This document shows positions 4,083 through 61,646 of a stretch of 64,000 bases of DNA, piece by piece. The DNA is from Chrysophaeum taylorii (lineage: Eukaryota; Sar; Pelagophyceae; Pelagomonadales; Pelagomonadaceae): positions 184,262 to 248,261 of the forward strand of contig JAQMWT010000037.1 in assembly GCA_029834535.1 (NCBI GenBank), given 5' to 3'. Below the pieces are notes generated by a model. That model had not been told where the DNA came from. It saw only the letters and a list, made by a program, of their open reading frames with translations, and did no database searches. Positions within the stretch are counted from its first letter, which is position 1. Every line of letters begins with the position of its first letter. The translations under genes were made by a program, and so were the position numbers.

Positions 4083-4847
4083 TGGAGAGATTTGACCCTC
4101 TCCGGGTACATGGTAGAGACTGCGTGCAGTCTTAGGCGTGTACAGACCATTCCGCTTGTCACATGCTACTACACAAGGTAGGGATTTAAGCCCTAACTCC
4201 TTAAGGACATTAAGTCCCATAGAAGCGTTTACGCTGACAACGAGGAACGAAGCCTCTGTTAATTAAACAGAAAACCCCGTACCTGACGGTACGCGCCTGG
4301 AGGCCTACTCCGTGTTGGAAGAGAGCTTCAGACTGTATTCTTCATAGTCATGAGTAAGTAATTGCGGAAGGGTAAGGAAGGAATGAGGGAAAGCCGTATT
4401 AACCAACTTCAGACCTCTCCCGAGCATGGGAGCCAGGCCGGACCGACAGGAGCCAGTCCGGAATCACGGGCCTGTAGACGAGGAGCGCCGAAAGGTCGGT
4501 CGGCGGAGAGTGACCATCAAGCTTGTCGCCATGCGACGAGGAGACCGCGATGTGACTGACAACCAACTCGTCGATAACCTTCCGTCTTCGCCCCCCGGCC
4601 ATACCCCGTCCCACTGCGAACGTTCCGGCTGCCAACCGGCCCGCCCGGGAGGCGAATAGGTGCCAACCTACGCCGGGAGGGCGGATGCCCTCGCAAGGCT
4701 CAGGATTCATGAGGCACCGTCCTCCATCGCAACCGCAGTCGGCGATCAGGGTAAGCCGTATTACGGAGAGAAAACCCTCTTGCAGAGATATGTGTGAAAG
4801 GCGTGAAATGTTCCAGTGTCGTACACATAATAGTGTAGCTCTCTGGA
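4083..4847 (-). repeat. Family A LTR, inverted, split by a SINE
   Basis: Reverse complement of the 477-878 LTR, about 400 bp once the SINE at 4402-4752 and one duplicated target are removed. No primer-binding site flanks its left end. On the right (minus-strand upstream) it is preceded by GAGGGGG at 4848-4854, so it reads as the 3' LTR of a minus-strand A element whose ORF3 end is at 4965-5690. Together with the LTR at 477 it forms a long inverted repeat around A1 gag-PR. Confidence 0.85.
4402..4752 (-). mobile_element. SINE-like retroposon S1
   Basis: Copy of a ~370 bp interspersed repeat inserted in the inverted A LTR. It is flanked by an 11-bp target duplication AAGCCGTATTA at 4391-4401 and 4753-4763. 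On the minus strand it begins ACCCTGATCGCC and ends GGTCTGAAG plus a degenerate TTGGT tail. Five other copies are at 14630, 24175, 33808, 37202 and 46217. Confidence 0.85.
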
Positions 4848-7971: not shown

Positions 7972-9858
7972 TCAATCCTGTAAAGGATTGTCGTGGGAGG
8001 CATGATGCATACCGAGTAGAGAACGAAAAGTTGAGAACTCAGCCGCAAGTGGTTTTGTAAAGCCATCCGCCACGTTCAGCTTGCCGGGAACATGATGGAC
8101 TCGTATTTTCTGAAGCGATATGTACTCACGAATCTTAAACCATCTAGTCGACAGTGCCTTGGATCGAGAGGACCCATCTGGGTTATTAGAGGTGTGAACA
8201 GCGGCAGCATTGTCAGACAAAAGAGGTAGGCTTCTGATGAAGCGCATATCTTCAGCAATTGGGTTGTCATTGTCATCGAAGTCAACAGGGTCAGCAGTGT
8301 TCTCACCATTAGCATTGTTGACGTAGAAGGTGGGGTTGACGACAAAGGAGAGTTCCAACACCAGCTTGCGTAGCCAAACAGCTTCATCAGCACAAATACT
8401 GAGGGCAATCAACTCAGCTTCGTGAGTTGAGCAGGAGACAATCGGTTGAAGTTTGCTTTTCCAACCAATAAGGCAGTTGAAAAGATAGAAGACAAACCCG
8501 GTGGTAGATTTCCTATCTTCCTGTGCTAAGGAAGGGGCATTGTCAGCGTCAACCATGGCAACTAAGGAGTCAAACTGTCCAGTAGATACATCCTGTGGTT
8601 GGTAGTCGACCACAGTGGATAGATCTATTCGATTAGCGGAGACAGTGCGAGGGTGAGCTTCGATGGCATTACCTTTAGGGTGAAACCAGAGGCGAAGTGA
8701 GCGGTTTTCCGGCTTCTTGAGGTAGCGAAGCTCTAGCATTTGGACGTGAACATATGTGGGTGCATGCATACCACGCGAACATCTGCCCAAGGCTTGCGAG
8801 AAGTCAGGTCTGCAGGCAACTTGCATGAACACCAGCTTGCCAAGGAGGGTGGCAAAGTGCGAGTTGATGTACAACTCTGTTTCAGTGCTGGGAGTGCCAT
8901 CTTTATACTTGAAGGACGATGACATAGGATATTTAAGCGGGGTCAGTTGCTGCAAGACTGGGTGATCAGCGAAGAGTTCATCCAGCTTGGCTTGCACATC
9001 CAGTGAAATGGAGCCGTCAGATGTGCGACACACACGCATGCCTAGGAGGGTATGGACAGGTTCAAACTGCTCTACAGCATACCGTTTGTGGAGGGCATCC
9101 TGTAATTCAGTACGAAGAGGGTCGTCATTGGACACAATAACAATGTCGTCTACAGACAGACTGCATACGACGAACTTAGCATGTGCGGATACTCGAGCAT
9201 ATAGGCAAGAGTCCGGGTGCAGGTGTTTGTAACCAAGGCTACGGAAGAAGCCGTCTATCTCTTTGTTCCAAAGGGATGGTGATTGCCTAAGTCCATAAAG
9301 TGACTTCAGCAGTTTCGGTAGACGTCGGCCCTTGTACTTAGCGTCATCGGGGTCGATAAGCTTGATGCCGTCTGGTAACTGAACATAGACATTGGCATCG
9401 ATGTCAGACTGAACGAAGGCGTTCGGGACGTCTGCATGGTAGACAGGCAATTGCTTGTATGCTGCGATAGCTAGTAGTACCCGGATTGCGGTCATGGTGG
9501 CCATGGGGCTGAAGGTACCTAAGAAATCGGCGCCAAGAGATGCTAGGAAGCCACGTAGTACGAGGCGAGCCTTGTGCTTAAGGTATTTGCCTGCAGAGTC
9601 TGTTTTAATCTTCAGCACCATCTTGCTGTCAATAGGACGAGAGACACCGTCGGGTAAGGAAAGTTTGAAGCAGCCAAAGCGGATAATGTCGTGGAGTTCC
9701 TTGGCGATGGCCTTGAGGTAGGCGTGCCTGTTTTCAGGCGACAAACCGTGGAGGCACTTAAGTTTATATTCGTCAATGGAAACGTCCGCTTCTTGGGCCT
9801 TATATTCGTCAGGACCAACAGTGGCTGGTGAATTATAGTTTAGCGACGTTGCGGTCGA
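7972..9858 (-). CDS. pol: C1 reverse transcriptase-RNase H
   Basis: Intact copia RT-RH, starting after the TATSLNY motif. RT: KMVLKIKTDSAGKY, KARLVLRGF, DVPNAFVQSDI, SLYGLRQSPSLW, catalytic SVDDIVIVSND near 9130-9160. RNase H: DADNAPSLAQEDRKSTTGF, SCSTHEAELIAL, LSDNAAAV, and the terminal VADGFTKPLA typical of copia. It shares one open frame with the upstream spacer from 10464. It copies the element RNA in cytoplasmic particles. Two residues in LELRYLKK are missing relative to C2 (LEHLLRYLKK), which could affect activity. The stop is TGA, followed in the same frame by ORF3a. Confidence 0.95.
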   Translation of the reverse strand, partial: STATSLNYNSPATVGPDEYKAQEADVSIDEYKLKCLHGLSPENRHAYLKAIAKELHDIIRFGCFKLSLPDGVSRPIDSKMVLKIKTDSAGKYLKHKARLVLRGFLASLGADFLGTFSPMATMTAIRVLLAIAAYKQLPVYHADVPNAFVQSDIDANVYVQLPDGIKLIDPDDAKYKGRRLPKLLKSLYGLRQSPSLWNKEIDGFFRSLGYKHLHPDSCLYARVSAHAKFVVCSLSVDDIVIVSNDDPLRTELQDALHKRYAVEQFEPVHTLLGMRVCRTSDGSISLDVQAKLDELFADHPVLQQLTPLKYPMSSSFKYKDGTPSTETELYINSHFATLLGKLVFMQVACRPDFSQALGRCSRGMHAPTYVHVQMLELRYLKKPENRSLRLWFHPKGNAIEAHPRTVSANRIDLSTVVDYQPQDVSTGQFDSLVAMVDADNAPSLAQEDRKSTTGFVFYLFNCLIGWKSKLQPIVSCSTHEAELIALSICADEAVWLRKLVLELSFVVNPTFYVNNANGENTADPVDFDDNDNPIAEDMRFIRSLPLLSDNAAAVHTSNNPDGSSRSKALSTRWFKIREYISLQKIRVHHVPGKLNVADGFTKPLAAEFSTFRSLLGMHHASHDNPLQD

Positions 9859-11491
9859 GGCAGTGTGCGCAACTTCGGGATAAGCGGAAACAGCGTCGGT
9901 AGGAGTAGTAAGGGCAGATTCCAGTTGGATATGGATAGTAGGGTCGGTACGTACGACCTGGGTGATAAACTCTGTAGAGACCAGAAGGTATTCCTCCAAG
10001 TCAGCCAGAGATGCAGAGGTAGCGCCAAAGTCGGATGAGTTTTGATCAATAAAGCTGGTCGGCGCCAGGTACGTAATGCATATATAGCCAGATTCGTCGG
10101 CGGTAGCGTCAGAAGATGGAGAAGAGGCCGGAGTAGGGGACGAAGAAGGAGGAGCTGAAGGAGGTGGGGAGTGCCCCCTCTGAGCATGAGAAGTCCTTGT
10201 CCCCCTCTGAATGACATGGTCTTGTATAGTGGTGTGGGGTGTGAGCGAGAAAGGCGCGGAAGGAGCATGTGGCGGAGGAGCTAATTCAGGATCAGGAGTA
10301 GGATGCTGCAACATGTAGAGGAATTGCAGCTTGGACGAAACACGGATTTGTCCGTTTTCAGGGTTGAGGACGACGTCAGCGCGATGGTCGACGCGTGGGG
10401 AGACGAGCGGGTTTGTGCGTTGGCGCAACAGAGATACAGATATTTGCGGCGGCACGGTTCCCACTTGTGGTGTTCATGGGGCTCCAATAGAGGTAACATT
10501 CAGCGCCAAAAATCTTGAGCATATCGTGTTGGGGAGTGCTGAGTTGGTTGTAGAGTAGCTGTTGCGGACTCAGAATAGCATGATGAATGCGCTCGAGCGT
10601 GGCGTTCGGGAGAAGGTTATAGCTTTGAACGGTGTGTATCACCGCCCATGGGAACATGATGGCGGGTTCCACGATCTTGGCGCCACGATAGTGAGCATTA
10701 AGGAGAGAACGAAGGCGAGTTGAGGAGGCGGAGGCGATGAAACCGATGGCAGACTCAACTTCAAAGTTAAAGTGGTGCATGTACGGCGGGAAGGCAATGA
10801 GTTGAATGCCCTTATCGACGCGGTACGGGGAGGTAATGTGCTGGCTAAAGTAAGGCTTGAATGCATCGGAGTAGAGGTGCGCATGTGCACATTGAGTTGT
10901 GTACGACAGAGTCATACACAAAATCCAGAGTGTTGAGCTTGAACTCCGTGGCGTTGGTGGTGCGTGTAAAGTACACCAAGAGAAATTTCGAAATGAGTTC
11001 CTTGAAGACGATGATATGTGTGAAGCCTCCCATTCGGATGGGATGGTCACATAGCCGCCGTCGCACGCCCAGACTTCGCCGGCTTTGTGGGTTTGCTCAA
11101 AGAAGCTTGGTCGCATTGAAATGCTTGTGCGGGTGGCGCTTGTTGTGTGCGATGCAGTCGGTGCATAAGTCGCGATATGGTATGTCAGAAGCAGAGAATC
11201 CAGGGCGAGTACGTTGGGGGCCTTGGCAGCGACGTTGTCGGGGCAGTGATGCACCCGGTGAAAGCGATTAGCACGTTCTTTGGCATTGAGATATTCGGTG
11301 GATCCGTGTGCGAGGGACTTACGAGGAATTGGATGAGCGGGAATGTGCCGTTTGCGCCGAACATCGAACTTGAGTTCGGTGTCTAAGGCAGGGGAAGGCG
11401 GTGCGTCGTCATCCTGGTGCACAGCAGGGTCACTTGGAGGTGCATCCTCATTATCACGAGTAGCGAGAGTATCTTCGTAGGACGACGATAT
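9859..11491 (-). pseudogene. C1 integrase and linker
   Basis: Starts after TEMSLNY. An HHCC zinc finger (FHRVHHCPD, then Cys pair) is followed by the rve core: D in ACDGGYV, D in YSDAFKPYF, E in FNFEVESAIG. Next come the copia-type LSPQQLLYNQL and a Pro/Ser-rich linker (PPPSAPPSSSPTPASS). A 1-bp deletion near 10490 and others shift frame relative to C2. About 450 bp of linker present in C2 (59,700-60,200) is deleted at about 10080. IN would insert the cDNA into the genome. The first Asp, second Asp and Glu are all present. Confidence 0.85.
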
Positions 11492-11515
11492 ATAGTTTAA
11501 CGACATTTCGGTCAA

Positions 11516-13427
11516 GCAGTTGCTGGAAATAGACATCATAAAAGCTTGTGCCAAAGACAAGGTATCTGTGCTGCACGTGGTGGAGGCTTGGTCAACGGTC
11601 ATGAAATTGGATACATAGGATTTCTTCGTCACGGCAGCAGTATGTTGGAAGGTAGGGTCCAACATAAGGGATTTAATATCGGCGACGATGAGCGAAAGGT
11701 GCTTGTACAGAGTGCTGTACGTACCGGCAGGCAGAGCATTGCTGAGCATGTCACAGCAAAGGTCATGGCGTAGAGACAAGAGGGAAGATTCCTGTTGTTT
11801 GGTGTGGTTGTTAGCACGAATCAACTCCGGTCGAGTGGGGTAGCGTAATTTCCCGTTGCGAGGGTCGAGTAAAATAATATTGGCATACCCTCGGACGGTT
11901 GGCAATGGAGCAAGCATTGAGTGGATTTTAGAGCCGAGTTTGCGGTCACTTCCACGAAGGTACCCTATATAGCGACTATGAGATAGGTGGTGATCTTCCA
12001 GAGCAAAAAGAGAATCCTTGTAATCGAAAGAGTTGTCGGTGGCCTTGTAGGTAAGGCAGCCAGGCATCACGAGAGCGCATCTGGACACGAGGTTTTGTAT
12101 GGCGGTGCCATAGGTGGTAGCGGAGCCAACTTGGGGAAGGGCTTGGACTATCCACAAGTAACCCATAAACGGCTCCATATATGGACCTGTCCCGGTCGCG
12201 GGGGATGTCGGAAGCAGTGAACGTATACGTGCTCCCAAAGGCGTTGATGGGGGTCTTTTTTGTGGTGGCGTTCTCTATGGTGAGGTTGCCGTCGGAATGG
12301 TGGCCACCAGTTAAGAAGTAGGAGTTGTGTGATGTTGATGAGGTTGTAAGTAATAACCTGTGTGACGGTTGGTTAGTTTCGAAAACGGTTATGTAATAGG
12401 ACACAGGAGTGGGTGAGTTAGTATGTAAGCTTGCAAACACGTTATAGAGGATTGTAAAAATCTTGACGTGTATAGGATGTGTTGCATTGGGTAATGGCTC
12501 CATAGAGGAGCGTTTAAAGCACAACTGATGGTAAGTACACTCGGATTGAACAGAGTGAGTACGTTGCTCGTGAGCCTGTTGTGAGTGAAGGCGAAGCAGT
12601 AACATATTGAGGGATTCAAGGTCAGCCAGAGTAAGCTGAGCAGAACCTGTGCGAGAGTAAGGTGCCAGCGTTTTAGGAACGGATATATATGGAGGATCGG
12701 GGAACACCCGGATCCAGTCTTTGGATATGTGGTTAGGTAGCCAAAGGCGCTTGGGAATAGCTTGTAGATCATCCACGATCTTTAGGAAGGGGCGTGGATG
12801 GAGGATGGGCCACGATGATAGTTTAATTGGTCCAGTAGAGTATCTGCGTGCGATGCATATCCGCCTTTCTCTAGATTGGTAGTCGCCACATAGGTAGGTC
12901 GGGAACCTATCAACAACATCGACACAGTAATAAAGGGCAGTATAGATAAGGTTGGCCACTGTGATGTGGTCTTGGTGACAGTACTTATGCGGAGGCGTCA
13001 TCTCAGCCAGTAGTACCAAGGGCTGGAGTAGTTTGATGACAGACAGCATGCTGTCGAAAAGAGAATCGTCCAGCAGGCTGTGTAAGTCTTCTGACTTTTG
13101 TTGTTTTCGTAAATTCCTGTTTGTGCAGGGAGGGGTGATCTCAATTATATCACAATAGAATGTGCGCCTTTCCTCTGGTGAGATTAGGTGAAGATGGTTA
13201 ATAAAGGCGGGGAGAGATTCAAATAATAGTACAGTAGGAAAACGGTGGCGTAACATACGAACAAGCGTATCATCAGACTCAACAACAACTTTTACATTGA
13301 TATTTAAGCCTAAGTCATTAGTGGCTTGAGACAGGAACGCCGGAGTTGACAAACCAGAACAAAGTAACATGACAGAGGGTTTGCGGAGATTGGACTCTTG
13401 TGAGAGAAAATCTGGCCGTGAGAGTAG
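11516..13427 (-). pseudogene. C1 C5 cytosine DNA methyltransferase domain
   Basis: C5-MTase motifs in order: I (MLLCSGLSTPAFLSQ, ~13370), II (VVESDD), IV (DIIEITPPCTNRN; Cys codon 13125-13127), VI (LLAEMTPPH, Glu kept, Asn to Met), VIII (DYQSRERRICIARR). A target-recognition-like region of ~250 aa follows, then IX (YPTRPELIRANN) and X (LSNALPAGTYSTLY, ~11730). It would transfer methyl groups from AdoMet to cytosine, plausibly on the element's own cDNA. A 2-bp deletion near 12175 separates motifs I-VIII from IX-X. It follows PR across an in-frame TGA (13428-13430) and ends before the SLNY motif preceding IN. SPC/PPC plus E resembles DNMT3-like and bacterial enzymes; exact class is not resolvable by eye. 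Confidence 0.85.
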
Positions 13428-14629
13428 TCAATTTAATGGCTGCGTATTTTGCTGAACAAATTTGTTATGTTTCCGAAGGTTGAGAACCAAAGGGCGAATC
13501 CACGGCCGATCTGGTAAAACTCGTTGGAGTAGGTAATTGTAGTATGCTAGTAGGTCCCTGTTTTCATGGTATCGCTTGAGGGGAAATGCAAGGGAGCGAA
13601 GTTCCAGCCGCTTGTCGCGCGCGATGTTGTAAGTGATACAAGGGAGAGCGGGTAAATTAGCTGCTACATAGTGTATGGGTATACGTACATCTTTGTCTAT
13701 GCGGCTCGTGACAGCGCTGAGCTTTGGCTCAGCTCGATCGTTGAACACGGTGGTAAGATTAGTCTGGTTCCATTCGAGCATGCTCAGGATAGCGAGATGT
13801 CGGTCATGCACTGGTTGAAGACATAAAGCGAAGTCGATCTTAACGTAGCCAACTTGTTGGTGATCTGGTACGGGAATAACGATGTTGCGTGTTAACATCA
13901 TGTGTGATGCCCGTTGTTGTCCTGTTGCCGTCTGAATAACAATCGGAGCGTATGTGGAGTTCAATGGAATTATATGATTGGGTATTGCGAAATCGTAGGT
14001 GGACATCAATGAGATGGTAGCACAAGAGTCAAAGTATAGAAAAGAGCAATGTGGAGGGACACTGTTTACCTTCATGTAGTTGGTGAGGAAGGCGTTTTCC
14101 GAATGTGGGCAAGTAGCGGAGAGGCTGGCGGTAAAGAAGTTCTTCAGCAGTAACAGATTCGTTGGAATAATGATCGGTTGGACAGGTGGTGATGGCTCGT
14201 CAGCCTCATCAGCCATGCCGTGCTTTTCGTCAAATGACGATAGAGAGGTGTGATCGGCATCCCTTTTGGTTTCGGCTTGTGATGGTAGGTTGAGGGCAGA
14301 TTGGACCTGTGAAGATAGCGAGGACAATAATGCTGGTGGTAAAGCCGAGATGGCGGAAGCGGTAAAGAGGTTAGACACAGTACTGGAAGGATCACCCTGT
14401 GTTTTTGTAGTAGGAGGAGTTGTTGTTGGAGTGGGAGCAGTAACGACAGCATGGTGTTGTGGCTCCACGTAGTTTAACGACTTTTCGGTCGAGGATAGAT
14501 GAACGTCTACATCATAAATGATGTCTTCTGCAAACATGAGCTGTTCGTTTAGACGAAGTAAACTACTGTTGTCCTCCGTAGATGTCGTTGACAGGATGTC
14601 AGCTGATTGTAACAGAGTCTCAAATAACT
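13428..14629 (-). CDS. C1 gag C-terminus and retropepsin
   Basis: Open frame from the SINE junction to TGA 13428-13430. Gag end (AEDIIYDVDVHLSSTEKSLNY; motif at 14469-14492), a Pro/Thr-rich spacer, NLFTASAISALPPALLSSL, then PR with DSCAT at 14016-14030 (Cys for Gly of D[ST]GA) and the flap region VIQTATGQQRASHMM. It continues through IDKDVRIPIHYVAANLPALP to RSLAFPLKRYHENRD. The TGA is followed by CTA, a context known to favour readthrough, and the MTase continues in the same frame. PR would cleave the polyprotein, perhaps at SLNY. Confidence 0.8.
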
Positions 14630-15000
14630 AACTTAACTAACTAACTAACTTCAGACCTCTCCCGAGCATGGGAGCCAGGCCGGACCGACAGGAGCCAGTC
14701 CGGAATCACGGGCCTGTAGACGAGGGGTGCCGAAAGGTGGGTCGGCGGAGAGTGATCATCAAGCTTGTCGCCATGCGACGAGGAGACCGCGATGTGATTG
14801 ACAACCAACTCGTCGATAACCTTCCGTCTGCGCCCCCCGGCCATACCCCGTCCCACTGCGAACGTTCCGGCTGCCAACCGGCCCGCCCGAGAGGCGAATA
14901 GGTGCCAACCTACGCCGGGAGGGCGGATGCCCTCGCAAGGCTCAGGATTCATGAGGCACCGTCCTCCATCGCAACCATGCGGTCGGCGATCAGGGTAAGG
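14630..15000 (-). mobile_element. SINE-like retroposon S2
   Basis: 371 bp, inserted in C1 gag. The 13-bp target duplication GTCTCAAATAACT is at 14617-14629 and 15001-15013. The tail on the minus strand is GTTAGTTAGTTAG. Full length, starting CCTTACCCTGATCGCC. Best-preserved duplication of the six copies. Confidence 0.92.
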
Positions 15001-17735: not shown

Positions 17736-18999
17736 GGTATATAACGTTAGCACCACATAAGTAGATGTAGGGACGACATCGGGGTTCATATTTATGAAAT
17801 TCGTTAGGTTCCAAATGCAGATAACAAACAGAACCAAAAGGTTTGAGGTAGTCCTGTTGGGGAACATTACATTGGTCCAACAAAACTTGTTGGGGGCTTA
17901 GGACTTTATTGTAAATACGTTCGAGGGGGACGTTAGGGAGGAGATTATACGATTGGATAGCATGTATAACAGCCCACGGGTAGTGTGGTGCCGGATCTGT
18001 TAGGGGTGACCTTTATAGGATACATTAAGCATATGCCGGTGTCGTGTAGACGTGGTAGTGGCCATGTGACCAACAGCGGCTTCTACTTCATGATTAAAGA
18101 CATGTAAGTAAGGGGGGAACGCGGACATATTAATACCATGTTCCACACGGAAGGGGGTTGTAACATGCCGAGAGAAATAGGGTTTAAAGGAATCACAATA
18201 GATTTGTTTGAGTTGTACATGAACATAAGTAGAGCAAAAATTGCGGACAAACTCAAGGGCGTTACAAAATTCGCTGGAGTTAGTGCTACTACAAAAGTAC
18301 ACTAACAGCAATTTAGAAATGAGACACTTGAAAACAATGATATGTCGAAAGGATCCCCATTCCGAGAGCACAGATACGTAACCACCGCCACATGCCCAGG
18401 CTTCACCAGGTTGAAATTTTTTGTTCGAATGATGGTTGCTTGGTAAGGTGATGTGGATGAGGAAAGCGTTTTTTGTGAATCGTACAATCCACACAGAACT
18501 TACGGTAGGGTACGTCAGATGGGTGGTGTCCAGGACTGGCAATAACCTGAACAGTCCATGACTGGCAATAACATGAACAGCTTTTATAGCTTGAGAATCA
18601 CTAGAATGGTGGATGTTGTGACAATTGGTGGCTCGTTGTTGCGCATCTCGAAATGCAAGGGTGCCTCTGGCATAGACTTTCTTATCGAAGGGCGCATGCT
18701 TTTCATGGAGCTGTCTTGGCGTTATAAGAGGAGTGTGTTTTTCTTTAGTAGGAGATGATGTATCTGCGGATGAGGTGTTAGAGAGGAAGACATGAGCTAC
18801 TGAATCGAGATGAAAAGATGGAAGTTCGTGGTTAGAGGCAGGATTATCACAACATGAAAGTTTTTTATTGGAGATGTAGAACACTGTAATGGAACTCTGG
18901 TGTAATAATAAGGATGTATCTGTTGGGAATATATTTGTGAAGAAAGTTGACCTATAGTTTTTGGTTAGAGGAGCGTGATCAGGGTCAAACGATGGTGAT
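17736..18999 (-). pseudogene. A2 integrase
   Basis: Copia-type IN with GEAWACGGGYVS (first catalytic Asp replaced by Gly; C family has ACDGGYV), D in YCDSFKPYF and E in FNHEVEAAVG, then LSPQQVLLDQ in another frame to LCGANVIYPF. The zinc finger is NCHNIHHSSD plus a Cys pair reachable only after a frameshift (~18510). A stop at 18000 breaks the C-terminal part. RT-RH of this element is absent: it is cut at 17735. Confidence 0.82.
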
Positions 19000-20764
19000 A
19001 GTGTTAATATACGCAAGTCATAAACAAGCAGACACAAATGTTTATAAATTGTATGATATGTTCCAGCTGGAATAGCATTTGCGATGATATCACAGCATAG
19101 GTCAGGGGACAAAGACAAAAGAAAATTGATTTGGTACGCTGTGAAGTTATTGGCGCGTGCCAATTCGCGAGTTGAGTAGTGTCGAATGCGATCGAGTCGT
19201 GGATCGTACACGAGCATATTAGCAAATCCACGAATGGTAGGAGTATGAGTGTATATAGAATGAACTTTGGCACCCATCTTCCTATCGCTTGATGTAATAA
19301 AGCCCAGATATCTGCTTTGGGACAGATGCATGTCACTTAAAGCAAACACTTTATCGATAAATTCGAGACGATTTTCCTGAGGGTAGAAGACAAAAGAATC
19401 GTGAAATACAGGAGAAGTATAGGTGACCAGTGCTTGTACTAAACGACGCGTGTCTTGATTTTCATTATTATGATGGTATGCTTGGCAAAGCCAAAGAAAA
19501 CCAGTAACAGGTTCGAGAGAAGCAGTCTTATCGATTCGGGCATCATGCGTTAGGAAGGTATAGGTTTCACCAAAAGCATTTATATGTGCCTGGTATTAGA
19601 AGAGGAGCTAGAAACTGTTATGTCTCCGCCTGTATGTCTTCCACCGGTGATGTAAATGATGGAGGAAGTAGAGGATTTATTAAGAAATAACCTATGAGGT
19701 GGTTGGTTAGGTTCGATAGTTGTAATACGAAAGGACACAGGTAATGTGATGGATTTAGGGAATAATCGTCCCATAATATTATAGAGGAGCACGAAAGCTT
19801 TGAGTTCAATAGGGGATCTCATGCAAGCAAGTGGTATTCTTGAATTAGTCAAGAATCCCAGGCGAAAGTTAGAAATGCCCTCCATTTCACATTGACTGGG
19901 ATGTTCGACTGTTTTATTAGAGTGCAGACGAAGGAACAGCATAGTTAAGGTTTCAAGCTCAGTCACAGTTAAGCGCACGGATCCTGTACGACTGAAAATA
20001 TTGTAGGTTTTAGGTGTGGACACAAATGGTATGTCAGGAAAGACCTGCGTCCAAGGTTCGTCGACTATTAACATGCGACTGATGGAATTAGTATGGTCTG
20101 CAATATCCAGAAAAGAAGTGACTCGTTTATTAGGCCATGAAAGCAGATCAAGAGGGCCGGTGTTATATTTACGTGCAACGAGGATCCATCTTTCTCTGGC
20201 TTGATAATCTCCGCATAGATAGCATGGAAATCGGTCACATACATCCACCGTATAGTGCATCGTTGAGAAGATGAGATTAGCAACTCGTATATGATCTTCG
20301 TATGATGCGGAGTGTGGTGGAGTCATTTCCATGAAGAGAACAAGCGGCTTTAAAAGCTCAAGTACACTTAGAGCACTTGGAAACAAGGAATCGTCCATAT
20401 CACGGTCGAAGGTGGAAATGGATCTCCCATTGATTATGTTGCGATTTGTGCATGGTGATGTCAATTCCACGATATCGGTGTAATATCGTGCACGTTCAAC
20501 GTCCGATGCTCGATGGAGGTATGTCAGAAACTTAGGTAGGGATGGGAAAATTTCGATGGAATTACCAAAACGTCTTCGTAGCATGTGCGTTATATTGTCA
20601 TCGCTCTCAACAAGAACTTTAACGTTGATGTTGATTTGCAAGTCATTAGAAGCGCAAGCCAAGAATGCAGGAGTGGACATCCCAGAGCAAAGGAGAGTTA
20701 CAGTAGGTGTTCGTGGGCTAGGAGACGAAGTTACTGTGTGAAGCAATCGTGTGGTAACCTTGCG
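19000..20764 (-). pseudogene. A2 C5 cytosine DNA methyltransferase domain
   Basis: Motif I (TLLCSGMSTPAFLACAS), II (LVESDDN), IV (DIVELTSPCTNRN; Cys codon 20450-20452), VI (LFMEMTPPH), VIII (DYQARERWILVARKY), IX (HYSTRELARANNFT), X (IIANAIPAGTYHTIY, ~19079). One frameshift near 19580-19350 lies in the target-recognition region. It is divergent from C1 yet keeps the same key residues, which supports selection on the domain. It is separated from PR by one in-frame TGA (20765-20767). Confidence 0.85.
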
Positions 20765-23509
20765 TCATACGGGAGGTGGGAAATGCTTGCGTATGTAAGG
20801 CAGCTGCGAATGCATTGACTCCAGGATGGTTTTAAGCCATGGGACGTAAATTACTCGTTCCATGAGGGTGGAATATAGTTTAAGCATTTCGCGTTGTTCA
20901 TTAAAAGCACATAGTCTGAACTGTAGTGAGCGAAGTTCCATTTTACGCGCTTTTGCTTGTTGTAGCGAATAAACTGGTAGAGTTGGCAACAGGTTACTGA
21001 GTCTAAACAAAGTAATTTTGACATTATCATCAATTTTACTCTGGATAGATGATTGTCCTTTAAATTCAACTCCATAAAGATGTATACCAAGTTTATCTTC
21101 TCCCCATTGAGTCATACTGATGATGTGCAGATCGGGATCGTTATGGTCGTTTTGCTTGGGTAGAAAAAGCGCAACGTCTAGCTTTACATATCCCACATTT
21201 GGATGCTTTGGGAGAGCGGGAATGACGGTCCTTATAATCATAGCATGTGTGATTCTCTGCGTATCCGTAGCAGTCTGGATAGCAGGTGATAAGGACTCGG
21301 GTAGCTTTACGATGTGGATAGGATCAGCATAACGTTTAAAGTTAATTACATGTTGAGAAGCACATGTCTCAGCATATCCTGGTGTAGTAATTAGCGGCAA
21401 ATTGTACTCGTTGTACAGTTACAGTTAAGCATTGTTGCATAACAGGCATGTGCTGAGCTTTGACCAAACACATACTGTGTCATGAAACTTTGCGTTTGTT
21501 CGGAAGGCACAACGACTAGTGTAAAACCAGTGTTTAATTTTGGTAGCAACACAGGGGGATCTGTACCATCTTCATTATCTTCATTGGGTAGATTACTGGG
21601 GAGCTCCGAGTGTGAGGAAGTTCCCCGAGCTTGACGACGAACGATTGCATTCTGAGCTTTAGCATTTATGTGCTGCAATAGCGGCTGAGGGATGTTATCG
21701 ATTTCATCATCTTTAATGGACAGAAAAGCGTGGAACATTTTCTATGTATCAGCAGTTCCCCTCTGCTCCGCATCACTGGGGGCGCTTCAGGAGCAGAAGT
21801 TTCAGCTTGATACTTTTCTTCTATAACATGAGATTCTTTATCGGCTTCTAAGAGGTTCGATATAGTATTGGACATAGTATCAACTCGAGATAAGTATAGA
21901 TGAACTTGAGTAGCTTCGTCAGGATCTAAAGATTGTGTCGAAGCTTGAGAAGCGGCTGTCCAGAGGGTACTCAGTAAGCTTTTCATTTCCTCCTGTACCA
22001 TTTTAGAGTCGGTAGAGGGGTTGGGATTCGCTTCCTGTAATTTACCAAACAGGCGGCGAAGACGATCAACTTGATAAGTAGCCCGGTTCATAAGAGACAT
22101 ATTAGAGCGCGCATTGCGGTTAGAAGAGGGTGAGTAGACAGGACGATCGAAGCTGGTACCTTTGACGTTATAATTTGAAGGTGGACGATAGTACGACGTG
22201 TCGCGAGGTGAAATTGTCGATGCTTTATCTTTTGCATTACGAAGTTTACATGCGTTGAAGCCAGACTGTCCATATACAGTAGCTAACAACGAGTAAGCGT
22301 TGTTTAAAGAGTCGTGGAATTGATGAATAGTATCCATCAATAATACTTTAGGTGGCTTGGTAGCGGTAGTACCAGGGATGTAAGGGATCCAGGAAGCGGG
22401 CTTATCCAAGCGTCGGTTAGAGGAAAACTTTGTTTCATTGTATATCTTTAACAAGAATTCCAGTAACGGACGAACGTCGTTAGGATCAACTAGCTTTAAC
22501 AATTCAGGATCGTGAATCGAGTTGTTCCCAGAGCGTGTCTCGTAGAGTTTACACCATTCCAATAAAGATTGAGAATAGCGCTCGTGATCCGAGGGATTAG
22601 CGTATAGACGGTAGATCTCCTCGTGAGCTTTAAGAGTAATTATGGAGTTATTAAATTGGATTGATGCTTCATCATTATTTAATTGCTTTGCCTGAGATTG
22701 GAAAGCAAGAAGTTGTTCGACGAATACATGGGTATGCCAATTAACATTTAAAGACATTCGATTAAACTGAGATTTAAGCTCAGTAACATCTGTACAAGAC
22801 ACTGTCTCATAGAAATGGTAAGACAAAAGCATTACTGCACGTAGTTTATTAGGATGTGCAGTAAGTGCATATATCTTCTTTAATTGAGGCCACATAGCGA
22901 GAGCTGGTCTGTCTTGTGATTCCAAGTTTTAAAATGTGTACAAGAAACCAGCATAAGTTTCGCAGTGTTTGATCAAGTCGGTATTAGAGAGACCTGTAAA
23001 GGATATGTTAGTTAGAGAAGAATCATACACAATTGATTTAGGGAATCGGGTATCTAATAGATTAAGGACACGTTTAACATCCTCATTTAATTCGGGACGA
23101 ACGAGATTATAGGACTCTTGGTAATAAAGTCGTTCGAGATTGTTACGGACATCGACTGTTAGTTGATGTGGTGAATTGACATGCCAAGTTTTAAATGGTC
23201 AGGCAGGGCATCTTCATCAGGCAAGTTTAAATCGTTTACCTGTTCAGCTTTCCATTGAGCGAAGATAATATCAACTTCTTGTTCAAGAAGTTGATTATAC
23301 TCCGGAGCATTCCGGGTGTAAGCTTCGTATGAATCGAAGCAGAATAACGCGTCCACATATGGACTTGTCATATGCCTGCGAAGCACCTCAATTAGCACGC
23401 TCACCTTGGTTAAGTTGTCTTGGAAACGCAATCCTGCGTTAATTTTATCAACGAGGATTTGTTCTTGTTTGTAGATATCCGTGGTGAATATTGGCTTTTG
23501 TTTTGACAT
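20765..23509 (-). pseudogene. A2 gag-protease
   Basis: Gag starts at ATG 23509 (MSKQKPIFTTDIYKQEQ). A 1-bp deletion near 23190, a stop near 22929 and frameshifts near 21740 and 21400 follow. PR carries AETCASQH: catalytic Asp is Glu (codon 21368-21370), probably inactive. Last part: IDDNVKITLFRL, SLQQAKARKMELRSLQFRL, ending TGA at 20765-20767 followed by CGC, with the MTase in the same frame. Confidence 0.82.
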
Positions 23510-26005: not shown

Positions 26006-26418
26006 TGGAGAGATTTGACCCTCTCCGGGTACATGGTAGAGACCGCGTGCGGTCTTAGGCGTGTACATACCATTCCGCTTGTCACATGCTACTACACAAG
26101 GTAGGGATTTAGGCCCTAACTCCTTAGGGACATTAGGATCTATATAAGCGTTTACACTGACAACGAGGAACGAAGCCTCTGCTAATTAAGCAGAGAACCC
26201 CGCACCTAACGGTACGCACCTGGAGGACTTCTCCTTGTTGGAAGAGAGCTTCAGACTGGTAACTTCATAGTCTTGAAATAAATAATTGCGGAAGGGTAAG
26301 GGAGAGGGAAGATATAAGGGAAAGCCGTATTACGTAGAGAAAACCCTCGTGTAAAAGGAGTATGAAAAGAGATGCGAAGAACTCCAGCGTCGTACACATT
26401 ATAGTGTAGCTCTCTGGA
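26006..26418 (-). repeat. A3 5' LTR
   Basis: Uninterrupted family A LTR. Two stem sequences differ from A1 by paired changes that keep base pairing (26040-26055 and 26178-26194). It ends next to the Ty3/gypsy fragment, so A3 probably inserted there. Confidence 0.85.
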
Positions 26419-26420
26419 AT

Positions 26421-28166
26421 TTGATCTTCCAAGAAATCCCCACCGATGTACCTGACACAGCCTGTTTTACCTTCTCTTCGGTGACGATGCCTATACCGAC
26501 GGACAGCGGACCCACCGCAGCTATGGCAGCAGTTAGTACGCGACAGAATTTACAACCGCCTCAATTCTCGTACGAGTCTGAGCCAGTTGACTCCGTCGAA
26601 CGTCTTCCTTTTGCGGATCAAGCTGAGGATGAGATCACTCTCGATGAGATAGCGAAAGAACAAGCTGAAGACGACACATGCAAACGAATCAGACGAAATC
26701 TCGATTCTGAACAGAAAGATCAAGACGAGCAGTCATCCGTACCGTATGAAGTTGACAACAACGTGTTGTATAAGATCGATGATTCGGATTCTCAACGTCT
26801 TATTGTGGTCCCTCCGTCGATGAGAAAGCGAGTAATCGCCATGCATCATCGAGGATTGTTCAGAGGCCATGTAGGACGAGACTCCACGGCGAATCAAATC
26901 TTAGAACGGTATTGGTGGCCAAACGCCTCATCGTCAGTTGATGAGTTTGTCAGTGCCTGCATTATTTGCCAGAAGATTCGATCCACCATGCCTAAGCGTC
27001 ATGGGTTTCTCTGTCAACCGAATCGCGTCGGAGGTTGCTATGTCCTAGGTATGGATCTGATTGGACCTCTGCGAGGTGCTGGCTTGTAGACGTACATACT
27101 TGCGATGTACGATGGAGCGTCGCATTTATTGAAACGGGCTCTGATCAACACCAAACATGATTATTCAATTTTGAACGCGTTTGTGGACAAGATTTCACTT
27201 GAGGGAAGTCTCCCACGATGCATAGTCACGGATAATGGAAATGAGGTCGCGAACATTTTATTTCGCACGTTCGTTCGTCAATTCAACGTACGTTATCGTA
27301 CTACCCTTCCATATCACCCTCAGAGTAACCACACTGAACGTGTCAACCGATTTATCAAAGCCTTCTTGAGAGCTGCGATCGATGAACAGCGTCAGCCAGA
27401 TTGGTGCAATTTCCTCCCATATGTTGCATTCATGTACAATAGGATGTACATTCCGGGAACGAAGATTTCACCTTTCATGATGCGTACCGGCACGCAACCC
27501 CTGTTACCACCCGATTACAATCTTTTGAGTGAACAGCGTGATCTACCGCAATCGCGTCAGCCGATTTTGATGGACTTTAAGAACAAGTTTGAATTTTACA
27601 GTCCACTCGTTACACGAGCTCACCAAAAGGCCCATGAGAGCCAGAAACTCAACTATGATGCCCACCAAATTGACATCCAGTTCCCCCCGGGTGATTATGT
27701 TTTGCGTTTCGTGCCTAAGACGCGCCACAAGCTACGGCCTATTTGGCGCGGACCTTACATAGTTACCAGACTAATCTCTCCCGTCGTTTGCGAAATTCAA
27801 GACGTCAACGACGATGATGCTGAATCGGTTGTAGTATCTGAACAGCAGATTGTGCCTTTGAAAGTGCCAACCATCGACACTTCTTCAGCCCCGCTGCATT
27901 TACCTTCAGACCGCGACCGTTTCGAACATGGCAAGTTCGCAATTTTCAGGGTTAAAGGACGATCCAACGCGTGGAAGAAGCGTATCTACGTTGCTGAAGT
28001 CTACGAAGAATATGACCACGACAATGATACCGTTGCGCTCCACTACTATACCGATTTGGGACCGCGCGATGATCCTCGTGTTTTTGATCCTACTAAGCCA
28101 CTGGCCGAGCGACGCTTAAGACCAGAATACAAGGACCCTGACGGAGGTAGCTTCACACGCCTATGA
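26421..28166 (+). pseudogene. Ty3/gypsy integrase
   Basis: The frame runs through one in-frame TAG at 27087-27089. Order: tail of RNase H spacer, H2C2 zinc domain (HHRGLFRGHVGRD ... CIICQK), rve core with D (GMDLIGPL), D (CIVTDNGNEV), E (HTERVNRFIKAFLRA), then the GPY/F-like module (PGDYVLRFVPKTRHKLRPIW), and a C-terminal domain (KKRIYVAEVYEEYDHDND ... VALHYYTDLG) that resembles a small beta-barrel reader such as a Tudor or chromo-barrel fold (inference). Ends TGA at 28164-28166. RT is absent upstream, lost at the A3 LTR. Only the TAG breaks the frame. Confidence 0.9.
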
Positions 28167-29521: not shown

Positions 29522-29718
29522 TAGAGATAGAAAATTCGAATTAGGGTTAGTACCCCCTATTCTAGGGTTAGTTCCCTTAACTTTAGCACCTTTTGATTTA
29601 AGAAAACGCCGTGTTATTCACACCGGCTGTCCTCGTTCTAGGAGACAGATTCGAGGGCAGACTACCACTGCTCTCTCGCTCTGCTGAAGGGTAACATAGT
29701 GGAAATTGCTGTTCTCTA
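29522..29718 (+). repeat. B1 5' LTR (197 bp)
   Basis: Starts TAGAGATAG and ends TTCTCTA: inverted TAGAGA/TCTCTA ends instead of TG...CA. Matches 39318-39513 and 44631-44826. Confidence 0.92.
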
Positions 29719-29732
29719 GGTTATGGGCCCAG
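29719..29732 (+). promoter_or_regulatory. B1 primer-binding site
   Basis: GGTTATGGGCCCAG, perfect half iMet-tRNA complement. Confidence 0.85.
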
Positions 29733-29800
29733 TCCCGGTATCAGCAGAGCCCCAGGATTTCCAGAAGAGTCCCACCGCTCCCTGACTGAACCCAAGCAAA

Positions 29801-31909
29801 ATGCTAACCAATCAAGAACTCGAAACGGAGATAAGAGAACAAGAAGCTCGCTTAGAAGCCAAGTACCAAAGAGACATGCAACAACAAGCTGAATTGTACG
29901 AAACTCGGCATCGAAGCGAGATGGCAGCACAAAAACAAGACAACGACGCTCGCTTCCAAGCACTCGACGAGAGATTTATTGCCATACAGGCACCACCACC
30001 TGCCGTCGCTGCTGCGGCTCCACCCCCCACTCCAGCTCAACAAGACCCCAAGACCAAGGCTAACACCTTTAGTGACCAACCTAGCGCCGTCCTCAAGTCA
30101 ATGGACTCAGCGCAAGTCACGCCCCAAATGCACTCGTTTCGTGTTATGCAGGTGTTCGTTGAACATCTGATGCCGGAAACAGGCATAACACAATATTCTT
30201 TGCAGGGCTTCTACACGTGGGAATCCGTCTTGCGCGGATCAAACGATCTCGCTGACGCTCTTCTCAGCCACTGCATCAAGGAATACGACAAGGACCCCGA
30301 CTACAACTCTACCGCCGGGAACACGCAAGATTTCCAAGGCCGTTACGTCTACTACAAGGGCACTTACCGCAAGTTCGGCAGACACTTCTTGGCGAACGTC
30401 TACGAGCCAAAGCCCCAAGAACTTAAAGACCAATACAAGGACGCGACCGATACGACGAAAGGCAAGTTGTATCCGATCACCCAACATCACCTCCAAGGAA
30501 AAGAAGCCGACTTCATCGTGTACCTCCGCGAGACCGTGCACCCCCCCTTTCGTCGTTTCCTGCATGCCGGTAGCGACTCCGTCAAGCACCCTGCATACGA
30601 CGAAATTGACGCGCTCGGATCTTCCCATCCGATAGGACTTGAATCGTACTACAAGCTCGCCTCGCACTCGACAAGCACACGGGCCAGAACCACGTCCACC
30701 ATGCGCATTGTGTCTATAATGCCTTCCTGGACACGCCGTTCAACCCGGAGATCCACGAGCCTGCGCATTATATCGACTATATGCGCCATGTTCAGCAGCA
30801 ACTCCGCCAAATCACCAACGATTCCTCTCTCCAACTTTCCGACGACAAGATCCTCGAGGAAATCCACCAACTCCTTCGCTTCAAGTACCCCCCAAGCTTG
30901 CTTGACTCCCGCACCCCAACACACATCAAAGGCTTCGCGCGTCTTGCCGATTGTCTACGTACTCCAAACGACTCGCTATTACTCGACGAAGACAAGGAAG
31001 CCATCCATCACCTTCCCAAGCTAATCGCTCGCATCACAGTCATCTCCACCTTCGAGCGCAACTTTTGGGCTCACCTTAAGCCTCATCCCACCCTCAATTT
31101 CAAGCCGTTGCGATTCGTCACTGACTTTGGTCGTCTACCGCTCCGGATCCCAATGAAGCCTCCTACGACGACACCGACCCTGTTGCCGTCTTTCTCACGG
31201 AAGCCGACCTAGATCAAGATGACGACAATGATCTCATCCAACATCTTCACGCCTATCGCAAGAAACAGCTCACGCGACATCCCAAGAAGCCCCCCCCAAA
31301 AAAGCCTCCGAATCCTCGCTCTCCGTCGTACTATCGTCATAACATCAACGACAGTCCAAAGCCCAAAGCCACCCCTGTCACCACAACGAAGACCAAGCAA
31401 AATCCCCGTGCTGCTCCTGTCACCTCCGACAAACGCGAGCACCCGCACCTCCGCAAGGTCACCTTTCCAACCCAACCGCATCCACCCAACCCATCTACTC
31501 CTGACCAGCTATTGAAGGTCCCCCTTCGTGAAGTCCGTCGCAAGCTCCAAACCATACGGAATCTCAGCCAAGCCGGTCGCCAACACACGTCCAGCTCCGA
31601 GCGCATGAGCAAGCTAATCAACCTCATCACCACCATCTCCGACGAGATACTTCTCTCCGAAGCCGACGGCGATGCCGCAGAGTTTCTTCAGGTGCTATCG
31701 TCCGATCCTCAGGATGATCCACCTGATGAGGGCGAAACTGACGAAAAAGATGACCAAGGCCATCTCGGTTTCTATGATGATCACGGCAGCTAGGCCTCTA
31801 CGACGACACCATCCCCGAAATCCGCGATGAGGATGATTCCGCCGAAGACTACGCACAACGTCACAGTAACTACATGCGTGCTCTCCACCAGAGTCAGCTT
31901 TTTCGCTGA
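29801..31909 (+). pseudogene. B1 gag
   Basis: ATG 29801 (MLTNQELETEIREQEARLEA); B2 starts at the same codon. An N-terminal Gln/Glu-rich coiled coil (~70 aa), a Pro/Ala linker (APPPAVAAAAPPPTPAQQD), a helical capsid-like region (GFYTWESVLRGSNDLADALL), then a basic and acidic C-terminal tail (REVRRKLQTIRNLSQAGRQ). No CCHC knuckle. Frameshifts near 30640, 31140 and 31790. The stop TGA overlaps the pol start as TGATG. Confidence 0.78.
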
Positions 31910-32790
31910 TGGTTGCCGACGACGCCTGTGCCGCCAACCACATCTTACTCAATCAGGCACCAAGCCTCACGATGACGAATTTCACCACCTCATCCACAAT
32001 ATCTCCCAGAGTCGCTGATTTTCTTTGTGCAACTTACACTCCAGGAAAGACATCAAAGAAGACTAACTCGCTGCACGGATGCAATGGACCCGGCACTGAA
32101 ACTTCATTAATTGACGGTGGCGCATCCTTCTGCTTCACACGCACAATTCAACACTTTGTTCCCGAGTCCATACGCCGGATTCCCGAACACACCATACGCA
32201 TGGGAAGAGGCACCTTGACCAGCCATTTCATCGGCGTCAAATCGTTGTACTTGCAGGCCGCAGGTCCCTTCCCCAAGGATATCAAACAGTCAACTGGTTA
32301 CGCATTATATCTTGTATTGTTGGTCGTCCCGCAATTCCGCTAAGGTCTACAGGTTATCGCGACATCTCAGCTCAAAGCTCTGAATGTCCAAGCAACCGAC
32401 CCGCCATTGCCACACGAACCATATCTGTACGAACTTATGAACACGTCGACCGCGGATCCCCACGATTATAAGACGCTTATAGGAAAAACAGCAATAGTTC
32501 TCGCCAATCGCCAAACCAATGGCCTGTTGTCCCTGCCGTCTCATCCAAAGCAAACATTCCGCGCTGTGGTTAGTTTTCACACCGGAACACGAATGTCACT
32601 CAAGGATGAACTTGCACACATCACACAGCATGTCGCAAAGACACGCTCGCAATCTCACATGTTAGATTTTGCTAAGCTACAGCATCACTCAATATTCTTA
32701 TCGGACCTCATTAGTCTCCCGCGTACTGTCGTCCAATATGCATTCACTACCTCAGCGGACCTCTCTGTGCAAGCACAACCCCCTCCGCTA
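31909..32790 (+). pseudogene. B1 protease region
   Basis: pol starts at ATG 31909, overlapping the gag stop. Retropepsin motif LIDGGASFCF (Asp codon 32113-32115), Gly-Gly where Thr-Gly is usual, with RIPEHTIRMGRGTLTSHF after it. TAA at 32341-32343 replaces the Gln codon of B2; the frame otherwise continues into the methyltransferase. Confidence 0.78.
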
Positions 32791-37193: not shown

Positions 37194-37201
37194 TTTGCTC
37201 C

Positions 37202-37570
37202 ACTCCTACCCTTACCCTGATCGCCGACTGCGGTTGCGATGGAGGACGGTGCCTCATGAATCCTGAGCCTTGCGAGGGCATCCGCCCTCCGGCGTAGGTT
37301 GGCACCTATTCGCCTCCCGGGCGGGCCGGTTGGCAGCCGGAACGTTCGCAGTGGGACGGGGTATGGCCGGGGGGCGAAGACGGAAGGTTATCGACGAGTT
37401 GGTTGTCAGTCACATCGCGGTCTCCTCGTCGCATCGCGACAAGCTTGATGGTCACTCTCCGCCGACCGACCTTTGGGCGCTCCTCGTCTACAGGCCCGTG
37501 ATTCCGGACTGGCACGTGTCGGTCCGGCCTGGCTCCCATGCCCGGGAGAGGTCTGAAGTTAGTTAGTTAG
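37202..37570 (+). mobile_element. SINE-like retroposon S5
   Basis: 369 bp, full length, in the B1 linker before RT. 8-bp duplication TTTGCTCC (37194-37201 and 37571-37578). Starts ACTCCTACCCTTACCC, ends GAAGTTAGTTAGTTAG. Confidence 0.92.
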
Positions 37571-39274: not shown

Positions 39275-39310
39275 TTTGATCCAGATTTCGCTCACCGAGT
39301 TCAATCTGTG

Positions 39311-39317
39311 AGGGCGT
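39311..39317 (+). promoter_or_regulatory. B1 polypurine tract (GAGGGCG)
   Basis: Purine-rich GAGGGCG next to the 3' LTR start, resembling GAGGGGG of A and C. Confidence 0.5.
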
Positions 39318-39513
39318 AGAGATAGAAAATCCGAATTAGGGTTAGTAACCCCTATTCTAGGTTTAGTTCCCTTTACTTTAGCACCTTTTGATTTAAGAAA
39401 ACGCTGTGTTATTCACACCGGCTGTCCTCGTTATAGGAGACAGATTCGAGGGCAGACTACCACCGCTCTCTCGCTCTGCTGAAGGGTAGCACAGTGGAAA
39501 TTACTGTTCTCTA
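39318..39513 (+). repeat. B1 3' LTR
   Basis: 196 bp, near-identical to 29522-29718, TAGAGA...TCTCTA ends. Confidence 0.92.
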
Positions 39514-40089
39514 GTTGTATATAGCTACACCGCACACGTTAAAGACTGCGCACCCCTGTGTGCTTGGTTATAGTATCATATTGTCGTGACAGTGTCGGTG
39601 TACTAGTCTTGTACTGATTGCACGCGCGCTTGGAATATTATGGGTATGTCCAATAGGACACTCCACGATAGTACAAACCTACCGCTCTCCGAGCACCACC
39701 TTGCACAACTGCCTGTTCAGTGCATGCCCTTTCACACTGGCAGGAACCACAGTTTGTACAGTTGGCATATAGGCGCCTCCATTGTTTACCTGATGAGAGT
39801 ACATAGACACCGCTAGACAGAGCCGCCTACAATGTTCTAGAATGTGTCAGTTCTGCTCTCTGACAGCCCACAGGTTCAGTCACAGTTCTCTTGCAGAACG
39901 AGCAGTATAGGTCGCACCCAAAGCAGTCTGGGTGCTGACATTCCCTTACCTAAGGTTCCCGTTGAATTTCACAGCGAGAACAACCATTCCAACACCAGAG
40001 TGGCGGTGTTAACCTTGGTTATGTTGAAGATTGGCCTTCGAATACCAGGTGCCTCATATCTGAGGCGTCCCCACTCATATCAGACCATC
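39514..40089 (+). other. D leader, second part
   Basis: Continues the D leader after B1. Similar to 17361-17735 of C1 (minus strand). No gene seen. Confidence 0.65.
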
Positions 40090-44455: not shown

Positions 44456-44630
44456 GGCGTTGATCATCACTAGAGAACAGTAATTAAAGGAAGCAACGAA
44501 CCCAGGGTTCGCGTTCGTTTTGAGTTCGAGTTCGCTGCCGGTTCGCGTTCGCCGCGAGTTCGGGTTAGCTACTGGTTCGCGTTCGCGGCGAGTTGGGGTT
44601 CGCTACTGGTTCGCGTGCGCGGCGAGTTTG
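44456..44630. repeat. TTCGCG-rich minisatellite
   Basis: GGTTCGCGTTCGCGGCGAGT-type units repeated at 44503-44628. Preceded at 44473 by TAGAGAACAGTAATT, the reverse complement of the last 15 bp of a B LTR. No gene. Confidence 0.65.
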
Positions 44631-44826: not shown

Positions 44827-44911
44827 GGTACTGGGCACCAGTCCCGGTATCAGCAGAGCCCCAGGATTTCCAGACAAGTCAAGCTTACTGACGTTCCTGA
44901 ACCCAAGCAAA

Positions 44912-61622: not shown

Positions 61623-61646
61623 ATAGTTTAACGACATTTCGGTCAA

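Follow-up and report, generated by a model that had tools for sequence, protein, structure and literature searches.

We analysed a 64,000-nucleotide stretch (the window) of the alga Chrysophaeum taylorii (contig JAQMWT010000037.1, positions 184,262 to 248,261, forward strand) that holds retrotransposons of four groups, here called families C, G, D and E. An earlier reading of the sequence alone (the original prediction) held that copia elements in this window carry a captured C5-cytosine DNA methyltransferase (MTase) between protease and integrase. The follow-up centres on C1 (5.7-14.6 kb), a family C element on the minus strand. Its gag 3' part and retropepsin (13431-14627, with FDSCAT at 14016-14033) were assigned by motif and position, Pfam giving no significant match. 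An in-frame UGA followed by CUA (13428-13430) separates this gag-protease (gag-PR) frame from the MTase-pol frame. The MTase domain then runs, by motif reading, over 11723-13367: motif I LLCSGLSTPAF (13335-13367), II VVVESDD (13269-13289), IV EITPPC (13125-13142), VI AEMTPPH (12987-13007), VIII GDYQSRER (12864-12887), the IX region PLPTVRG...RYPTRPELIRANN (11807-11908) and X NALPAG (11723-11740). It is followed by a linker and by integrase motifs (10376-11722, with internal frame changes), namely the zinc-knuckle CTDCI (11151-11165) and the core ACDGGY (11051-11068), and by a Ty1/copia reverse transcriptase (RT; 7972-10473; RVT_2, E-value 5.5e-41) with RNase H presumed downstream. Motifs I-X, like those of the protease, the zinc knuckle and the integrase core, are given their standard names.

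The predicted order of the motifs, and their placement between protease and integrase, are borne out in C1. Its frame is broken by a frameshift between motifs VIII and IX, with motifs I-VIII in the open reading frame (ORF) 13427-11976 and IX-X in the overlapping ORF 12274-10376, in another frame.

Intact copies and domain architecture

Unbroken versions of the domain were found elsewhere in the genome. Locus L049, of the family C type, carries MTase, integrase and RT within one frame of 1691 codons that includes motifs I-X (RVT_2 E-value 7.7e-42); its integrase (rve) and SH3 matches are weak, under their cut-offs, and its gag-PR frame holds one additional stop. The family G locus L047 has a 1464-aa frame opening with the same MTase. 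An intact family E element (L093) joins protease, MTase, integrase and RT in a single frame that spans no fewer than 1801 codons; PF00145 matches it at E-value 1e-7 and RVT_2 at 1.3e-17, the RT being cut at the locus end. Its gag lies in a different frame that overlaps the former by about 40 nt, and a CTTTTTC run right before the gag stop (L093:1080-1160) is a possible frameshift site.

Integrase precedes RT in one frame, as seen from the zinc-knuckle motif, the sub-cut-off rve match and, in C and G, SH3, all before RVT_2. By this order and the RVT_2-type RT, the elements are assigned on sequence to Ty1/copia. A search for long terminal repeats (LTRs) around C1 and in loci L047, L049 and L051 found none. 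Between motifs VIII and IX, some 300 residues of the C and G frames (L049, L047) and a longer stretch of E (L093) that aligns with them have no Pfam match at the threshold used; they probably form an enlarged target-recognition region.

Assignment to the C5 methyltransferases

The domain shows the C5-MTase motifs I, IV (PC), VI (E), VIII (QxRxR, or SKxR in family E), IX and X in order. The catalytic cysteine and the motif-VI glutamate are invariant in 28 of 28 element frames and also in two relatives from outside this genome, which share 41% and 37% identity and were found in the transcriptome of a marine protist and in a metagenome; one of them (P0006) is thus transcribed in some marine protist. 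The 28-frame set required the strings SG[LM]STPAF and YLCGDYQ, so that conservation of these two is partly circular, while motifs II, IV and VI lie outside the requirement. Profile homology further links the C/G MTase to that of family E, which is itself matched by PF00145.

The structure of the N-terminal 205 residues was modelled, and all 36 Foldseek matches in the PDB at E ≤ 0.001 are C5 MTases, a tally that, like the others from structure matches, relies on entry titles (one extra row is titled DNA modification methyltransferase). The predicted fold is that of a class I Rossmann MTase, nearest to the C5 MTases, in agreement with the original prediction, albeit from a low-confidence model.

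Several results weigh against this assignment. A Pfam scan of both C1 ORFs gave no match at E ≤ 1, PF00145 included; the original prediction had named the lack of a significant PF00145 hit as grounds for its rejection, and on this test the C1 copy counts against it. PF00145 likewise matched neither family C nor family G, and NCBIfam gave no match for L049 and P0006. Sequence searches of the PDB returned no MTase with the C/G profile (one chance proteasome match) or the E profile. AlphaFold confidence was low, with a mean pLDDT (predicted local distance difference test) of 43.6 in the first model and 57.2 in the N-terminal one. For the first model, C5 MTases made up 6 of the 8 Foldseek matches at E ≤ 0.001 and 23 of the 50 VIA rows, with other Rossmann proteins scoring only slightly lower. 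In other searches, L093 found nothing among PDB sequences, P0008 gave no protein match at E ≤ 0.001 (in a length window excluding P0006 and P0007) and the family E profile none at E ≤ 0.01. We consider the missing PF00145 match in C1 to be outweighed by the other evidence, in particular the structure model and the profile homology to the PF00145-matched family E. The reading as a C5 MTase captured by copia elements, placed between protease and integrase, draws support from the order of the motifs, conservation across species, purifying selection and the structural resemblance.

What the enzyme would act on is a separate matter. DNMT2 was the best single Foldseek match with both models, and copia particles contain RNA and a tRNA primer; the domain could thus be an active C5 MTase that modifies RNA (the tRNA primer or the genomic RNA), much as DNMT2 modifies tRNA, and that aids packaging or priming. 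The scores of DNMT1, DNMT2 and DNMT3 are, however, close together. Moreover, CFTxxY, which we take to be a DNMT2 hallmark, occurs in the host protein P0001 and is missing from all four element MTase parts (L047, L048, L049 and L093, where the one CFT sits in the protease). On the side of an RNA substrate, the retrotransposon-borne SymbioLINE-Dnmt gave no DNA methylation in yeast, a result inconclusive according to its authors, and RNA methylation was suggested (PMC5890265). Overall, we consider an RNA substrate unlikely.

Purifying selection on the methyltransferase

Ratios of nonsynonymous to synonymous divergence (dN/dS) were computed for 24 of the 30 loci L009-L038, six having failed to show a frame of at least 360 aa with both strings named above, and for four hand-named sequences (three from the window, and L049). 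The family G set comprised 24 loci and the window copy, picked for open frames, and 287 of its 300 pairs fell inside four bins of rising dS. Pooled dN/dS was 0.096 at dS ≤ 0.05 (29 pairs), 0.095 (43 pairs) and 0.075 (71 pairs) in the next two bins, and 0.055 at dS 0.2-1 (144 pairs).

Within one family G pair (L047 and L048), the MTase had a dN/dS of 0.035 over motifs I-VIII, 0.073 between VIII and IX and 0.096 over IX-X; the linker stood at 0.081, the integrase core at 0.024 and the sequence past the core at 0.188. From the values of 0.035 and 0.024, the MTase is kept almost as strictly as the integrase core in this pair. In family E (169 codons), 17 of the 21 pairs have dS > 0.4 and dN/dS of 0.09-0.17, the other four giving 0.22-0.36; C1 against L049 gave 0.29 at dS 0.1. 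These young family C and E pairs (0.22-0.36) tell against functional conservation, as they are expected if many copies decay, and we read them as decaying. Comparisons among C, D and G, including the comparison of C1 with A2 suggested earlier, cannot be used for dN/dS because synonymous sites are saturated (proportion of synonymous differences, pS, 0.81-0.89; 0.89 for A2 and C1).

The same data bear on whether the domain is an inactive relic of a captured MTase, retained for a different task, for instance to bind DNA or to act as a Pol scaffold. The sequence is distant from all known DNMTs, family G has SPC as its motif IV, and in C and G motif VI is EMT, not ENV, as a relic might have it. The invariance of the catalytic cysteine and the motif-VI glutamate, together with the near-integrase constraint on the catalytic part in the L047/L048 pair, argues otherwise, and a relic appears quite unlikely to us.

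An in-frame UGA upstream of the methyltransferase

UGA occupies the junction between gag-PR and MTase-pol in all 68 scored sites of families C and G, and the next base is C in 66 of them. For family C, 40 of the at least 108 places found with the C1 domain were taken and 39 could be aligned, all with TGA: 36 read TGA CTA, and one each TGA CTG, TGA ATA and TGA ATG. All 29 family G sites have TGA followed by C (25 CGC, 4 CAC), and the six copies checked are open for 482-486 codons upstream, to the locus end. The context of type II stop-codon readthrough is UGA followed by CUA or CGG (PMC11166343). Family C matches this triplet (UGA CUA, 36/39), while family G has UGA-C and not the exact triplet. 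Since the MTase lies after the UGA, it would be made only as part of Pol if readthrough occurs; judged from this arrangement, the C/G MTase should be produced only with Pol, by readthrough.

Other observations speak against readthrough. Two of the 39 family C sites lack C after the UGA, and copy D in the window has the sense codon CGA at this position. RNA structure 3' of the UGA was in none of six copies clearly more stable than in shuffles (z -0.64 to 1.75), and type II readthrough often comes with a stem-loop 6-12 nt past the stop. Finally, the UGA surroundings of the retrotransposon Tca2 alone drove no readthrough in yeast (PMC2194720).

The UGA could instead be a shared nonsense mutation from a defective master copy, the pol frame being expressed through an internal start or a subgenomic RNA. 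Copies of one family share descent, which together with the CGA of copy D and the missing stem-loop would fit such an origin, and a weak promoter lies within the Tca2 junction (PMC2194720). A nonsense mutation would not readily account for the same site in two families that are only about 49% identical in the MTase-bearing protein, for the C that follows in 66 of 68 sites, or for purifying selection on the downstream frame, and we find it rather unlikely.

Copy number and host methyltransferases

Searches of the 70.8 Mb genome found at least 105 places with P0006 (families C and G together), at least 108 with the C1 domain and at least 135 with the family E domain. The P0006 and C1-domain lists overlap and a few places are fragments of one copy, which makes the totals inexact. 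Places also recur at near-equal coordinates on paired contigs (C10/C297 and C25/C521), suggesting duplicated haplotype contigs, which likewise keeps the counts from being exact. The genome search with RVT_2 covered the best 150 of 1670 candidates.

PF00145 alone marked at least 57 places among the best 123 of 474 candidates scored, and 55 of the 57 overlap family E places. The other two are host genes: a DNMT2-like gene (L001), as we judge from its CFTKSY, presumably an instance of the hallmark CFTxxY, and a DNMT5-like gene (L002/L050) with a 2086-aa frame holding PF00145 and SNF2 domains. DNMT5 is known from a fungus as a maintenance-only enzyme. If it only maintains here too, new 5-methylcytosine would come solely from retrotransposon Pol leaked by readthrough; the elements would be the alga's only source of de novo cytosine methyltransferase, and a parasite would write the host methylome. 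We regard this as very unlikely; host DNMTs with introns, or beyond the best 123 of 474 candidates, could have been missed.

The observed/expected ratio of CpG is 0.90-1.05 in the elements and 1.27-1.41 in host gene loci, and TpG/CpA is higher in the elements. This pattern is compatible with methylated elements; it is weakened by element CpG being only mildly under that of host genes, and confounded by the lower GC content of the elements.

A further possibility is that the MTase targets host chromatin, silencing competitors or restraining its own element and so limiting harm to the host. Slower retrotransposition has been proposed as a host benefit of the published DNMT elements (PMC5890265), and the DNMT5-like host gene could maintain such marks. 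The UGA stop, on the other hand, would hold the MTase at Pol level inside particles, and we judge a chromatin target to be quite improbable.

As a separate feature of this genome, light-harvesting protein genes were found at no fewer than 84 places, some partial and several in tandem arrays (contigs C88, C539 and others). One of these proteins matches antenna proteins named LHCI, FCPI, VCPI and ACPI; together these findings point to a photosynthetic host, perhaps with a plastid of the red type.

Other copies in the window

The original prediction had listed a full MTase in C1, A2, D and C2. The kinds of motif it named are present, but the frames of C1, C2 and A2 are broken and motif IV of D is interrupted. 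Its set of MTase-bearing elements holds for C, D and apparently G, and lacked family E, which adds two copies (29.5-39.5 and 44.6-52.5 kb).

C2 (55.2-64 kb), the second family C copy, lies on the minus strand (57591-63565), with UGA-CUA at 63563-63565 and MTase motifs from I (63470-63502) to X (61854-61871). Its frame changes inside the MTase, the ORF 63562-63044 stopping before motif VIII (62998-63021); Pfam matches to SH3 and RVT_2 (E-value 9e-42) lie in ORF 61223-57591. The family G copy (18.0-22.9 kb, apparently the A2 of the original prediction) is also on the minus strand (18000-20767), with UGA-CGC at 20765-20767 and motifs I (20663-20695), IV (ELTSPC, thus SPC; 20450-20467), VI (20312-20332) and VIII (20189-20212). 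Stops and a frame change separate VIII from IX-X; frames holding motifs I-X of family G are present elsewhere in the genome. The MTase of copy D (41.1-44.3 kb, apparently the D of the original prediction) lies on the plus strand (42551-44295) with motifs from I (42551-42583) to X (44278-44295). Its motif IV is split: roughly 46 inserted residues (42776-42925) lie between ELTP and CSNRN and leave the frame open.

Family E copy 1 (29522-39514, plus strand) is bounded by LTRs of 198 bp that are 95% alike (29522-29719 and 39317-39514), with flanks ATTGT/GTTGT, a candidate target-site duplication, alike in four of five bases. Its motifs are protease (32110-32127), MTase I (32797-32832), II (32872-32889), IV (33019-33036), VI (33142-33162), VIII (33271-33282), IX (34515-34547) and X (34605-34628), integrase (35219-35236) and RT (37822-38130), interrupted by short repeat insertions. 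It gave the sole PF00145 match (E-value 2.5e-7) among ten window ORFs scanned, a set outside which the family G ORF lies. Copy 2 (44628-52753, plus strand) has protease (47681-47698), MTase I (48358-48393), IV (48578-48595), VI (48703-48723), VIII (48832-48843), IX (49792-49824) and X (49882-49905), integrase (50502-50519) and RT (52733-52753); frame changes occur within its MTase and PF00145 does not match it. The MTase motifs of family E read AGG-EGF, CEI, TLPC, ENVPP, SKxR, NEIAKFG and NAVPHH. Another family E locus, L052, holds a pair of 127-nt direct repeats 8.3 kb apart.

Several copia elements have a repeat of roughly 290-370 bp, its copies 94-98% alike, inserted inside or next to them (4400-4755, 14642-14999, 33801-34089, 37209-37572 and 46216-46582); it looks like a short non-autonomous element. 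At 26355-28166, frames resemble a Gypsy-like zinc knuckle and integrase core, judged by residues.

Proposed mechanism

Starting from the computed domain, position, frame structure and selection, we infer readthrough, packaging, a DNA substrate and a benefit to the element. An ancestral Ty1/copia element would have taken up a C5-cytosine MTase gene, which became a Pol domain in the gap between protease and integrase and kept its function; the uptake would predate the split of families C, G, D and E. A single capture before the split is the simplest account because C, G and E share homologous MTase, integrase and RT in the same order. As to a viral donor, IMG/VR was scanned with the C/G and the E profile, using two short peptide patterns for either; they matched 29 and 30 times, and neither scan led to a confirmed relative. 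Profile comparison of E and of C/G with the DNMT2-like protein of the host gave unconvincing probabilities of 0.3% and 2.5%.

In families C and G, ribosomes would make Gag-PR and halt at UGA-C; occasional readthrough would yield Gag-PR-MTase-integrase-RT-RNase H, so that a little MTase is packaged in the particle beside integrase and RT. Family E would make its protease, MTase, integrase and RT from one frame overlapping gag in another. Inside the particle or the pre-integration complex, the MTase may methylate cytosines of the new double-stranded complementary DNA (cDNA), the self-methylation that the original prediction had suggested. The premarked cDNA would then enter a methylated host genome, shielded against foreign-DNA responses or imposing a chromatin state at the insertion. 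As a whole, this chain of capture, UGA readthrough, particle packaging and cDNA self-methylation is our best explanation, with about an even chance of being right.

Comparison with known systems

We take Tca2 of Candida albicans to be a copia element. It shares with the C and G elements an in-frame UGA between gag and pol; it differs in that no MTase is mentioned in the available part of its description, and in the elements described here the protease precedes the stop (PMC2194720).

Capture of DNMTs by retrotransposons, to which the original prediction had pointed, is documented in dinoflagellate LINE (long interspersed nuclear element) and DIRS elements and in charophyte LTR-Gypsy elements, which carry Dnmt3 or an orphan DNMT, and self-methylation of the retrotranscribed DNA was proposed for them (PMC5890265). 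In yeast, CG methylation was seen with two SymbioDIRS DNMTs and with none of the tested LINE and Gypsy DNMTs, a negative that the authors consider inconclusive (PMC5890265). KnitGypsy-Dnmt3 of Klebsormidium nitens resembles the present elements in having a C5 MTase in the Pol of an LTR element, under purifying selection (Ka/Ks < 0.2) and in multiple copies; it is, however, a Gypsy element with DIRS-like repeats and a recognizable Dnmt3, and UGA readthrough is not mentioned in the text available (PMC5890265). SymbioDIRS-Dnmt3 and SymbioLINE-Dnmt of Symbiodinium likewise bear a C5 MTase with its catalytic residues kept, in hundreds of copies, but belong to tyrosine-recombinase or LINE elements with a Dnmt3 or orphan MTase, whereas the C/G MTase escapes PF00145 (PMC5890265). 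One sentence elsewhere has DNMT3 carried by 'LTR Copia' and DIRS elements of streptophytes and dinoflagellates; in the portion available it gives no anatomy and cites the 2018 paper that calls the element Gypsy, and the MTase described here is not demonstrably a DNMT3 (PMC12344493). The kinship with the dinoflagellate and charophyte cases is therefore one of kind only, the present elements being Ty1/copia and their DNMT class not assignable.

A literature search, mostly without subscription journals, turned up no Ty1/copia element described as combining a UGA-C junction with an MTase placed after the protease and before the integrase. Placement of the putative MTase behind an in-frame UGA is, as read from the sequence, new relative to the published cases, and this very divergent and abundant DNMT capture in copia elements represents a variant beyond them. 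The divergence is such that the Pfam model found no C/G copy, and surveys based on PF00145 may therefore undercount. The distant families, with the same MTase position, strong purifying selection and the UGA, give a comparative signal that makes the benefit of the enzyme to the element testable. Ty1/copia elements, in well over 100 copies, are thus added to the retrotransposons that bear a type of enzyme normally used against them.
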